From NCBI GenBank assembly GCA_003054665.1, contig QAYY01000010.1, forward strand, positions 186,001 to 250,000: a stretch of DNA of 64,000 nt, in the 5' to 3' direction. This DNA is from Opitutaceae bacterium EW11 (GTDB lineage: Bacteria; Verrucomicrobiota; Verrucomicrobiia; Opitutales; Opitutaceae). Shown in pieces: positions 11,452 to 14,296 of the stretch; position 1 is the first letter of the stretch; every line of letters starts with the position of its first letter. The translations under genes were made by a program, and so were the position numbers. The notes beneath the pieces were generated by a model. The model worked only from the letters and a program-made list of their open reading frames with translations, did not search any database and was not told the origin of the DNA.

Positions 11452-12588
11452 ATGACGCACGGCAAAAACGCAGGAACGGAGTCGCTCAAGATCGCGATCG
11501 TCAGCACGCCCAAGACGGGAAACACGTGGCTGAAGCTGCTGCTTTCCGAAATCTACGGACTGCCGATGATCTCGCTGCCTCCCGCGCTCTCCCCGAACGG
11601 GTGGGAAGACTTCGGAGCGCGGTGGGTCTCCCACCAGCACTACCTGCCCGACCCGGCACTCCTCGCCTGGGGAAAGAAACAAGGCGTCGTATTCGTCACG
11701 TCCGTACGGCATCCGGCCGACGTGTTGGTCTCGCTTCGCCATTACCTGGCCACCCGCGGCGACACTCAGCTGGGAGAGCCCGCCGATCCCGAGCATTTGG
11801 TGGGCGATCCCGGAACCAGTTTCGGCTCCCACGCCCGGGCCTACGTGGAACGGGGATTCTTTTACCTGCTCCAGAACTCCATTTCCTGGATCTGCGGCGG
11901 ATGGTCGCTCCCGGTCCGCTACGAAGACCTGTACGAGCGCCCGCTGGAGACCCTCCGCGAGCTGACCGGCCGGATTCATCCCGTCTCCGACGAGCGACTA
12001 CAGCGCGCGATCGACCGGTGCGCCATCGGGCGACTGCAGAAGCGCAGCCAGTCCGACCGCCAGTTCTTCCGGCGCGGAGGCTCGGGTGGCTGGCGGACCG
12101 AACTGCCTGCCGACCTGCAGTCGCTGTTGTTTTCCACCGAACCCTACCGTACGCAGCTCGAACTCCTCGGTTATTCGCTGGAAGGCGCCGCTGCGATCGC
12201 TCCCGGGGCGGCGGGCTTGCTCGCAAGCGCGCCGATTGCCGGAGAAATTGCGCGCGAGCTCTCGACGACCAAGTCCGCGGCGGCGGCGCTTCCTGCGGCC
12301 GACGCGGCTGTGTCCCGGCTAAACCGGCGCGCGACCGCAGACAGCGCCCCAGCGGCGTTTCCTCAGTTCACGGAACTTGCGTATGCGCTGTACCGGCGGA
12401 TGCCGGAGGTTCAACGAGAGTACCCCGACCTGTGGGGCCGCGATCGCGCGGCGTTCGCGAATTGGTTTCTCCATTTCGGCCTGCCAGGCCTGGGACTGCA
12501 TCGATCCTTTGCCACGCCGATCGTTCGCTCCTGGGAACTCGGTCCGGGCGCCGCGACGTTGCGCACGCATCGCGAGGACGCCGCCTGA
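11452..12588 (+). CDS. sulfotransferase domain protein
   Basis: A 378-residue protein. The PAPS 5'-phosphosulfate loop is visible as STPKTGNTWLKLLL (residues about 16-29) and the 3'-phosphate motif as SVRHPADVLVSLRHY, both diagnostic of the sulfotransferase_1 fold that moves sulfate from PAPS to a hydroxyl or amine. After residue about 235 comes an Ala-rich region and then a short helical segment (AYALYRRMPEVQREYPDLWG) of a kind seen in large polysaccharide glycosyltransferases. It may therefore sulfate an exopolysaccharide or glycan; this is inference. The start at 11452 precedes the first recognisable motif; the frame extends upstream to 11323 with no matching sequence. Confidence 0.8.
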   Translation: MTHGKNAGTESLKIAIVSTPKTGNTWLKLLLSEIYGLPMISLPPALSPNGWEDFGARWVSHQHYLPDPALLAWGKKQGVVFVTSVRHPADVLVSLRHYLATRGDTQLGEPADPEHLVGDPGTSFGSHARAYVERGFFYLLQNSISWICGGWSLPVRYEDLYERPLETLRELTGRIHPVSDERLQRAIDRCAIGRLQKRSQSDRQFFRRGGSGGWRTELPADLQSLLFSTEPYRTQLELLGYSLEGAAAIAPGAAGLLASAPIAGEIARELSTTKSAAAALPAADAAVSRLNRRATADSAPAAFPQFTELAYALYRRMPEVQREYPDLWGRDRAAFANWFLHFGLPGLGLHRSFATPIVRSWELGPGAATLRTHREDAA

Positions 12589-12638: not shown

Positions 12639-12667
12639 TTGACAGGGCACCGCGGAGTCCATGGTGT
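12639..12667 (+). promoter_or_regulatory. promoter candidate for the leader peptide and aminotransferase
   Basis: A perfect -35 hexamer TTGACA (12639-12644) is followed after 17 bp by TGGTGT (12662-12667), a weak -10. Initiation about 7 bp later would place the start only about 5 nt before the leader peptide ATG at 12680, i.e. a nearly leaderless leader ORF. The -35 is strong, the -10 doubtful. Confidence 0.4.
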
Positions 12668-12679
12668 TTGGCCTGTCCA

Positions 12680-12778
12680 ATGAACCTCGCCTGCAACACA
12701 CGCCGCACCCTCGCCCTCGGTTCCTCCGTGGTCGTCATTGCCGTCGTTGCAGTTATGCGCGCACCGCGAGGGGCTTGA
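12680..12778 (+). CDS. valine/isoleucine-rich leader peptide (ilv-type attenuator)
   Basis: A 32-codon ORF encoding MNLACNTRRTLALGSS, then VVVIAVVAV (six Val and one Ile in nine residues, codons 17-25, nt 12728-12754), then MRAPRGA and a stop at 12776. It lies between the sulfotransferase and a strong terminator. The layout matches ilvB/ilvG leader peptides, which stall ribosomes when charged tRNA-Val or tRNA-Ile is scarce. No Shine-Dalgarno is seen, but the promoter candidate would give a near-leaderless message. Alternatively it is a chance ORF with a hydrophobic core; the RNA pairing described for the attenuator makes that less likely. Confidence 0.65.
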   Translation: MNLACNTRRTLALGSSVVVIAVVAVMRAPRGA

Positions 12779-12828
12779 ACGTCGTCACTTTCGCCCCCTC
12801 CGGTGCATCCGGCAGGGGGCTTTTTTTT
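12708..12828 (+). promoter_or_regulatory. transcription attenuator: alternative RNA pairings around the leader peptide
   Basis: Four segments are visible. Segment 1 (CCCTCG at 12708-12713 and again 12714-12719) can pair with segment 2 (CGAGGGG, 12767-12773, spanning the last leader codons). Segment 2 can also pair with segment 3 (CCCCTC, 12795-12800), which is the left arm of the terminator; segment 4 is AGGGGGC at 12814-12820. A ribosome stalled at the Val run leaves segment 2 free to pair with 3 and prevent the terminator; a ribosome reaching the stop codon covers segment 2, so 3 pairs with 4 and transcription ends. This is the classical scheme, here read from the sequence and not tested. 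Confidence 0.65.
12793..12828 (+). terminator. intrinsic terminator of the attenuator
   Basis: GCCCCCT (12793-12799) pairs with AGGGGGC (12814-12820); an inner CCGG/CCGG pair extends the stem with one bulge and a TGCAT loop. Eight T follow at 12821-12828. It begins 15 bp after the leader peptide stop and lies about 45 bp before the next ORF, so it is placed to control the aminotransferase rather than only to end the sulfotransferase message. Confidence 0.85.
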
Positions 12829-12872
12829 GCCCTCGTTCCGGAGCGCCGCCCAGGGGACGCACTCCACGTCCT

Positions 12873-13091
12873 ATGAAAACGAACCAAATCCATTCGCATG
12901 CCGGCCACGCCGCCGAAACCTGCGACCCCGAACACCGACCCGAGCCGATGCACCGGCTCGCCGGCGGCAAAACCGACGGACCGGCCGCCACGCACGGCCT
13001 GCTTGTGCCCGTGAATCACCTGGAACTGCTCGCGGCTTCTCACGCGACTCTCTTCCGGGAAACCGCCCTCTCCGCGCTGGATTTCCCATGA
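12873..13091 (+). CDS. small ORF of 72 residues coupled to the aminotransferase gene
   Basis: An ATG at 12873, 45 bp after the attenuator T run, opens a 72-codon frame starting MKTNQIHSHAGHAAETC and ending ALSALDFP. Its TGA (13089-13091) overlaps the ATG of the aminotransferase (ATGA). No domain is recognised; the sequence is rich in His, Ala and Thr and has no membrane segment. The overlap and the lack of an obvious ribosome site before the aminotransferase suggest it is translated to deliver ribosomes to the next gene. It may be a genuine small protein or only a translational feeder. Confidence 0.45.
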   Translation: MKTNQIHSHAGHAAETCDPEHRPEPMHRLAGGKTDGPAATHGLLVPVNHLELLAASHATLFRETALSALDFP

Positions 13092-14296
13092 ACGCACTCT
13101 CTGCTTCCCCGCTGCCCTTCGCTTCGCGCATGGCTTCGCTTCGACCGAGCGCCATCCGCGAAATTCTGAAAACGACCGAGTCGCCCGATGTGATCTCCTT
13201 CGCCGGAGGTCTGCCCGCGGCCGAGTTTTTTCCGTGCGAGGAGATCCGCGCCGCGGCCGACGCGGTCCTCCAATCCGACGGTCCGGGCGCGCTCCAATAT
13301 GGGATCACGGAAGGTTACGGGCCGCTCCGGGAATGGGCCGCGGGTCACCTGCGCGAGACCGTCGGCCTCGAGGTGCCGCCGAGCCAGATTCTGATCACTC
13401 ACGGTTCGCAGCAGGGCCTCGATCTTCTCGGGAAAGTGCTGATCGATCCGGGCGACACCGTCATCGTGGAATCGCCGGCCTACCTCGGCGCCCTCCAGGC
13501 GTTCCAGGCCTATCAGGCGAACGTCGTTGGTATCCCGGCCGACGAGGAAGGGCTGCGGGCGGATCTGCTCGCAGAAACGTTGGCTCAGGTCGGGCCGCGG
13601 CCGAAGTTCCTCTATCTCATCCCTAACTTCCAGAATCCGACCGGCACGAGCATGTCGGTCCGGCGGCGGCGCGAGATCGCCCGCCTCGCCCGCGAGCACG
13701 ATTTGCTCGTCGTGGAGGACGACCCGTATGGACGATTGCGCTACAGCGGCGAAGAATCGCCCGCGCTCGGCGCGCTGCCGGATGCCGGCGACTGGGCTTA
13801 CCTGGGCACGGCAAGCAAGATACTCGCGCCGGGGCTCCGCGTGGCCTGGCTGGCGACGTCGCATCGCGGTCTCTACGAAAAACTCGTCACGGGAAAACAA
13901 TCCTGCGACCTGCACACGAGCACGCTCAACCAGCGCATCGTATGGCAGGCCGTCAGCCAGACGGCGTGGCTCGATTCCCACATCCGCCGGATCCGGCAGG
14001 CCTACGGCGCGCGACGCGACGCGATGCTCCGAACCCTCGAGATGCACCTTCCGAAGGGCGCGCACTGGACGCACCCCGACGGCGGCCTGTTCCTCTGGGT
14101 CACGCTTCCCGGCGCAGTCGACACGATCGAACTCCTCCGTCAGGCCGGCTCCTGCAAGGTAGCGTTCGTGCCGGGCGCGCCGTTCTGGGTCGGCAACGTG
14201 CCCAAAAACACACTACGCCTGAACTTCAGCCACGCCGCCGAGCCGTTGATCGAGGAAGGAATCGCCCGGCTCGGCCTGCTGGTCGCACGGAGCTGA
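13088..14296 (+). CDS. PLP-dependent aminotransferase, LysN/2-aminoadipate type
   Basis: A 402-residue fold-type I enzyme of the class I/II family close to LysN and MocR-type aminotransferase domains. Landmarks: ISFAGGLPAAEFFP near the N-terminus, HGSQQGLDLLGK (PLP phosphate region), NFQNPTGTSMS (Asn and Pro of the cofactor site), EDDPYGRLRY (Asp-x-x-Tyr pair), GTASKILAPGLRVAW with the Schiff-base Lys, and RLNFSHA near the C-terminus with the carboxylate-binding Arg. Enzymes of this group accept 2-aminoadipate, leucine and other branched or aromatic amino acids. The upstream Val/Ile attenuator suggests a role in branched-chain amino acid formation. This assignment is inference from control, not from residues. 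Confidence 0.8.
   Translation: MNALSASPLPFASRMASLRPSAIREILKTTESPDVISFAGGLPAAEFFPCEEIRAAADAVLQSDGPGALQYGITEGYGPLREWAAGHLRETVGLEVPPSQILITHGSQQGLDLLGKVLIDPGDTVIVESPAYLGALQAFQAYQANVVGIPADEEGLRADLLAETLAQVGPRPKFLYLIPNFQNPTGTSMSVRRRREIARLAREHDLLVVEDDPYGRLRYSGEESPALGALPDAGDWAYLGTASKILAPGLRVAWLATSHRGLYEKLVTGKQSCDLHTSTLNQRIVWQAVSQTAWLDSHIRRIRQAYGARRDAMLRTLEMHLPKGAHWTHPDGGLFLWVTLPGAVDTIELLRQAGSCKVAFVPGAPFWVGNVPKNTLRLNFSHAAEPLIEEGIARLGLLVARS

Follow-up and report, generated by a model that had tools for sequence, protein, structure and literature searches.

The window, the whole stretch of 64,000 nt that was analysed, carries a valine-type leader region between a sulfotransferase-like gene, which ends at 12588 on the same strand, and the gene of a class I aminotransferase. 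A small ORF of 72 aa lies between the leader region and the enzyme gene. It is the first gene after the terminator and had gone unreported in the sequence-only reading of this DNA. The features are given below.

12639–12644, plus strand: −35-like promoter element TTGACA, seen in the sequence; it begins 41 nt before the leader ATG
12680–12778, plus strand: leader ORF of 32 aa, MNLACNTRRTLALGSSVVVIAVVAVMRAPRGA followed by a stop codon, seen in the sequence; Val-rich leaders occur at 138 loci
12722–12735, plus strand: segment 1 (TCCTCCGTGGTCGT), which pairs with segment 2 as the 1:2 hairpin (consensus fold, compensatory changes)
12728–12754, plus strand: Val/Ile control codons V17 V18 V19 I20 A21 V22 V23 A24 V25, seen in the sequence; the Val run is conserved in homologues
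12761–12773, plus strand: segment 2 (GCACCG-c-GAGGGG), which overlaps the end of the leader ORF (2:3 antiterminator pairing, covariation)
12793–12806, plus strand: segment 3, left arm of the terminator and 3′ arm of the antiterminator (covariation of both helices)
12809–12828, plus strand: segment 4, right arm of the terminator, with a tract of eight T (terminator helix pairing, covariation)
12852–12871, plus strand: SD-like AGGGG and then a short hairpin (GGACG/CGTCC) just before the start codon of the small ORF (sequence, stem scores)
12873–13091, plus strand: microORF of 72 aa with the family motif HD[FL]LV..(N).RPDL (104 homologous loci, coding selection in relatives, chimera HMM)
13088–14296, plus strand: LysN-like class I aminotransferase of 402 aa (PF00155, 2.3e-30), the start of which overlaps the microORF stop (ATGA)

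The leader ORF with its VVVIAVVAV run is present as the sequence-only reading described it, and the near-leaderless start proposed there is supported by the position of TTGACA. Of 145 loci, 113 have a TTGAC in the 60 nt before the leader ATG, with 41 nt as the commonest distance; among random 60-nt windows the figure is 3.7%. Segment 1 takes in the first control codons. The sequence CCCTCG, previously put forward as the partner of CGAGGGG, does occur twice in 12708–12719, but the segment conserved across the family is 12722–12735. CGAGGGG (12767–12773) and CCCCTC (12795–12800) are both where they had been placed, but the 2:3 helix is longer; in full it pairs GCACCG(c)GAGGGG at 12761–12773 with CCCCTCCGGTGC at 12795–12806. 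The translation of segment 2 is APRG, conserved in the leader peptide, and the leader stop codon is at 12776. The terminator likewise keeps its place and its eight T (12821–12828), but its stem, formed by a left arm at 12793–12803 and a right arm at 12809–12820, has 11 bp with one bulge rather than 7 bp. A simple promoter and terminator scan detected neither the promoter nor the terminator signal of the element, probably because of the bulged stem and a poor −10. The folding energy of the stretch is only modestly unusual (z = −1.9).

The 147 matches to this element fall into several contexts. Thirty precede ilvB, 86 precede a small ORF behind which no aminotransferase was found, 18 (the window locus included) precede a small ORF and an aminotransferase, four precede an MFS transporter gene, and nine are other or truncated. 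The aminotransferase taken earlier as the target is present in the window, but as a minority context (18/147). Control of a LysN-type enzyme was a partly correct reading of the locus: a Val/Ile leader-peptide attenuator does lie upstream, but the first gene behind it is the 72-aa ORF and the enzyme comes second. The statement that the target is not ilvB is misleading in view of the homology to ivbL, the 30 other copies before ilvB and the ilvBN-like character of the small ORF. At the ilvB-type loci, the ACT small subunit comes next in most cases where the sequence reaches. The window's own genome has a second copy of the attenuator, which is of this type (L251, G000:C15:174407-174504) with the leader MSSTFESRAFAAPASLVLAVVVVTNVAP, which ends in AVVVVTNVAP. 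The genes behind this attenuator are an ilvB, complete and AHAS-I-like, and that of an ACT small subunit. Their best matches are NF006016 (PRK08155) and NF006036 (PRK08178), respectively, both below the equivalog cut-off but clear; we take these models to represent the large and small subunits of AHAS I. Among the 104 genomes with a small ORF, four also have an ilvB-type copy. Among 14 genomes examined, a canonical ilvB (~43% identical) is the sole ilvB wherever the small-ORF type occurs without an ilvB-type copy, and the ilvB-type genomes have an additional AHAS-I-like ilvB. An aminotransferase downstream of a full ilvBN was not found in the stretches read. At one further locus (L254, G004:C1:2408026-2408130), an ACT small-subunit-like ORF of 113 aa stands directly behind the attenuator with no preceding ilvB, possibly an intermediate of operon loss.

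The microORF family comprises the 104 loci with products of 58–111 aa, and the window copy is a divergent member of it (THGLLVPVNHLELL). With 72 aa, and with no match to a ThDP-binding large subunit or an ACT domain in Pfam or NCBIfam, its predicted product is not an AHAS enzyme; it has no meaningful relatives of any kind in these two collections. Within the motif core, variation is lowest at second codon positions and highest at third positions. Within-genus dN/dS was computed for relatives of the window microORF, the window copy itself having no same-genus genome for comparison. It is below 1 in all 28 disjoint pairs, and the median over all pairs is 0.35, while in the two shifted frames the median is 1.28 and 1.77. 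Judged by these substitution patterns, the relatives are under purifying selection and are probably kept as a protein. The alternative which survives best is that the microORF is unimportant as a protein, being either a decaying remnant of ilvBN or a mere coupling device for translation of the aminotransferase. The ORF is short, divergent and proline-rich, its lack of Pfam or NCBIfam relatives fits such a role, and at 17 of the 18 aminotransferase loci its stop overlaps the start of the enzyme gene as RTGA (ATGA or GTGA). We nevertheless consider a remnant or coupling device rather unlikely. No aminotransferase was found behind the microORF at 86 of the 104 loci, and at 54 of these 86 the gene predicted next lies on the other strand; at the remainder it is varied. 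The dN/dS values argue against decay as well, and different genera have retained the HD[FL]L core. An intrinsic terminator behind these solo microORFs is not enriched (5/86 versus 13/258 random windows). At 102 of 134 loci the stem near the small-ORF ATG outscores the shuffled mean; the stem evidence is weak in the window copy, where the automatic scan picked another stem.

Both ends of the microORF resemble parts of ilvBN. Its core is similar to the C-terminal tail of the small (ACT) subunit encoded behind ilvB at the other loci (e.g. KLHDVLSVRQRPDLPPDYF). With the IlvN profile, the motif is aligned in one register in 58 of 94 hits, and shuffled or reversed sequences score below the real microORFs. 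In several genera the N-terminus is colinear with that of IlvB from the first residues. A chimera HMM was made of IlvB residues 1–37 and the IlvN tail; its junction was picked after the microORF pattern had been seen, the two halves having been tested separately beforehand. At a scoring level of 2 bits this model is reached by 40 of 104 microORFs and by 4 of 784 other ORFs that are about as long. Its best E value is 6.9e-9, and the alignments are gapless across the junction. Profile-profile comparison gives E = 1.6e-6. An IlvB-like N-terminus together with an IlvN-like C-terminus is thus found for the family, and weakly for the window copy alone. The microORF is probably a fusion of the IlvB N-terminus with the IlvN C-terminus, as these alignments suggest, and an in-frame deletion within ilvBN is its most likely source. 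In an ancestral attenuator-ilvB-ilvN operon of the AHAS I type, such a deletion would have left ~37 codons from the start of ilvB, fused to ~20–25 codons from the end of ilvN. A candidate junction is a similar in-frame CTGCACG-like stretch present in both genes (DALHG in IlvB, KLHDV in IlvN); deletion between short repeats at this stretch would yield such an ORF. It could be argued that the resemblance is convergence or coincidence, and that an unrelated gene was captured behind the attenuator. The single-sequence similarities are indeed weak, with best E values of 6e-4 for the IlvN tail and 0.0025 for the IlvB N-terminus. This explanation is improbable, because both ends match, each where it should and in the right order, in a position taken by ilvB at 30 other loci, and because shuffled, reversed and background ORFs score differently.

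The attenuator itself is widespread in the family. A first covariance model, built from the loci of four close relatives, found the element in 143 of 252 same-family genomes and 37 of 49 genera (E <= 0.01). A model rebuilt from 100 family hits found it in 142 of 252 (E <= 0.001); across both models the genera number 36–37 of 49. The closest relatives of the aminotransferase in the family have the same leader, terminator and small ORF upstream of the enzyme gene, and two loci on the minus strand, L003 and L004, both carry the element. Nearly all matches have a Val-rich leader peptide, mostly ending in APRG plus one residue. The last 33 residues of the 138 leaders counted contain on average 6.7 Val, 1.3 Ile and 2.3 Leu. 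The covariation alignment consists of 100 genuine rows and 6 weak extra rows. Paired cells make up 96.5% of the terminator helix and 86.5% of the 1:2 hairpin, and in each of the two helices 12 of 13 pairs show compensatory changes; both helices were part of the fit behind the alignment, so their covariation counts are biased in their favour. The 2:3 antiterminator was absent from the model used for alignment. It has 89.2% of cells paired, as compared with 48–64% when slid, and changes on both sides in 6 of 12 pairs. All three mutually exclusive helices covary beyond shuffles. The refuting condition named by the sequence-only reading, homologous loci lacking the Val run or the pairings, was not borne out: the homologous loci have kept both. 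Since the element recurs in 142–143 of 252 family genomes with covariation in three helices, it is more than a chance arrangement.

The rebuilt model also recovers a known attenuator. On the ilvBN region of E. coli K-12 it matches the annotated ivbL over its full length (E = 5.8e-7, model positions 1–111), at the site annotated as the ilvBN operon leader peptide. Because a model of 100 family members finds E. coli ivbL, the element is, by this sequence comparison, an ivbL-type attenuator homologous to that of ivbL-ilvBN. The two share the Val-rich leader (MTTSMLNAKLLPTAPSAAVVVVRVVVVVGNAP in L316) and the terminator, and the 30 family copies that precede ilvB mostly have an IlvN-like ACT gene next, where the sequence reaches. 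There are also differences. The host here is not gammaproteobacterial, the structural genes in the window are the 72-aa microORF and the LysN-like aminotransferase, and the leader start is near-leaderless. E. coli IvbL has the C-terminal end VVVVVGNAP, whereas the leader here continues past the Ala-Pro at which IvbL stops (APRGA and then the stop codon). A ligand-binding riboswitch, a T-box or a protein-bound leader could be considered instead of a translation-sensing attenuator, since the primary sequence of the RNA is highly conserved, beyond what would be expected for many leader-peptide attenuators. Such a mechanism is very improbable. The conserved part encodes a Val-rich ORF that ends where expected relative to segment 2, the conserved APRG codons are accounted for by segment 2, and the covariance model finds E. 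coli ivbL; an Rfam scan of the whole 64,000-nt window gave no family at the gathering score, whether riboswitch, T-box or leader. Least probable of all is that the leader ORF is accidental and that the hairpin with its U tract serves as 3′ terminator for the sulfotransferase-like gene, about 200 nt upstream on the same strand. Leader, pairing segments and terminator are found together again in 143 genomes, TTGAC precedes the leader at a near-fixed spacing, and the antiterminator and 1:2 helices covary.

The attenuator is predicted to act in the classical way. RNA polymerase would start a few bases ahead of the leader ATG. When valyl- (or isoleucyl-) tRNA runs low, the ribosome would stall on codons 17–25, leaving segment 2 free to pair with segment 3; the terminator would then not form and the operon would be transcribed. 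When the tRNAs are charged, the ribosome would reach the stop codon at 12776 and cover segment 2, and the 3:4 terminator would halt transcription at the U tract. Stalling and the response to Val/Ile are what the codon run and the exclusive pairings suggest. Folding of the window transcript with and without a ribosome block agrees with this scheme in part. For a transcript ending at 12808, a ribosome on V17–V23 gives ~12 expected 2:3 pairs, and a ribosome on the stop codon gives none. With no ribosome, however, the window copy forms 2:3 rather than 1:2, and the folding of this partial transcript fails to show the shut-off expected when the leader is untranslated. The full-length transcript at equilibrium always prefers the terminator, and antitermination must therefore be kinetic. 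Classical attenuators decide kinetically.

The aminotransferase has 1wst and 2egy (8.3e-91) among its closest solved relatives. It thus resembles the Thermus LysN 2-aminoadipate transaminase (2egy) and the archaeal multiple-substrate aminotransferases (1wst), with which it shares PF00155, and it differs from them in sitting under a Val-type attenuator. No NCBIfam model reached its cut-off among the matches listed, and there is no curated functional assignment. The overlap of microORF stop and enzyme start suggests that the two are probably translationally coupled. A normal-looking branched-chain aminotransferase of the IlvE type is encoded elsewhere in the genome, so the LysN-like enzyme is not obviously needed for Val/Ile synthesis. 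Under the putative Val control, it may act on branched-chain 2-oxo acids.

Together, these observations point to an ivbL-type transcription attenuator before a microORF and a probably coupled LysN-like aminotransferase, the microORF having most likely arisen from an ilvBN deletion; we give this reading a probability of about 0.85. The attenuator is real and of an already-known kind, and the new part is its target. In many of the family's genomes it has apparently survived the loss of ilvBN and now precedes a conserved microprotein gene, which in a minority of such genomes, the window's included, is followed by a probably coupled aminotransferase. A search of open-licence papers found no description of this arrangement. 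More tentatively, and at slightly less than even odds, the ilvBN deletion produced a functional microprotein that is induced by Val starvation and has no ACT or catalytic domain. It may act on the remaining acetolactate synthase, and would have been kept across many genera and coupled to an aminotransferase in a few lineages. If it is functional, deletion and not de novo birth would have given rise to this bacterial microprotein, its regulation could be read from the outset, and its role in branched-chain amino acid starvation would be directly testable. The regulatory RNA would seemingly have outlived its operon in ~100 genomes, which have a small protein resembling both ends of ilvBN joined. 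A 2017 survey found AHAS I essentially in gammaproteobacteria only, the exceptions being Desulfovibrio and one firmicute (PMC5727371). By the present data, the classical kind of ivbL attenuator, along with ilvBN of the AHAS-I-like kind, occurs across a bacterial family that is distant from E. coli.

Two other kinds of leader system bear comparison. In Actinobacteria, ilvB operons are reported to be controlled by a uORF or leader peptide (PMC1262725, PMC10272879, PMC11857589). The likeness to the present element lies in this mode of control; the actinobacterial leaders control ilvB or ilvBNC. In Sinorhizobium meliloti the leader peptide peTrpL itself acts in trans (PMC7298713). Here too a small peptide is encoded in an attenuated transcript, but the candidate is the second ORF, behind the terminator, and its trans action is only putative.

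Outside the family, scans of the order and phylum gave weak matches only, with the exception of one genome. This genome belongs to a different family in the order and has a Val leader (MKLTLVVLLVKVVVVVVTSNEFARA) ahead of an AHAS-I-like ilvB (L323, G069:C19:23902-24018). A search of named genomes with the aminotransferase gave distant relatives only. A protein family associated with Verrucomicrobia had partial matches below its cut-off in 4 of 15 relatives and in none of 14 controls, a mere hint which, with composition, suggests that the bacterial family may belong to the Verrucomicrobiota. Within the family, a similar Val leader and terminator lie upstream of an MFS transporter gene (PF07690) at L175, L206, L248 and L225, and the transporter may possibly be controlled by Val supply in these four genomes. 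A short hairpin between an SD-like GGAG or AGGGG and the start codon of the small ORF is seen in the window and at loci L034–L260, and likewise ahead of many ilvB copies. Its sequence varies and the pairing is often kept, as in GGGAAAGGT..GCCTTTCCC and GGGCTGAT..ATCAGCCC.
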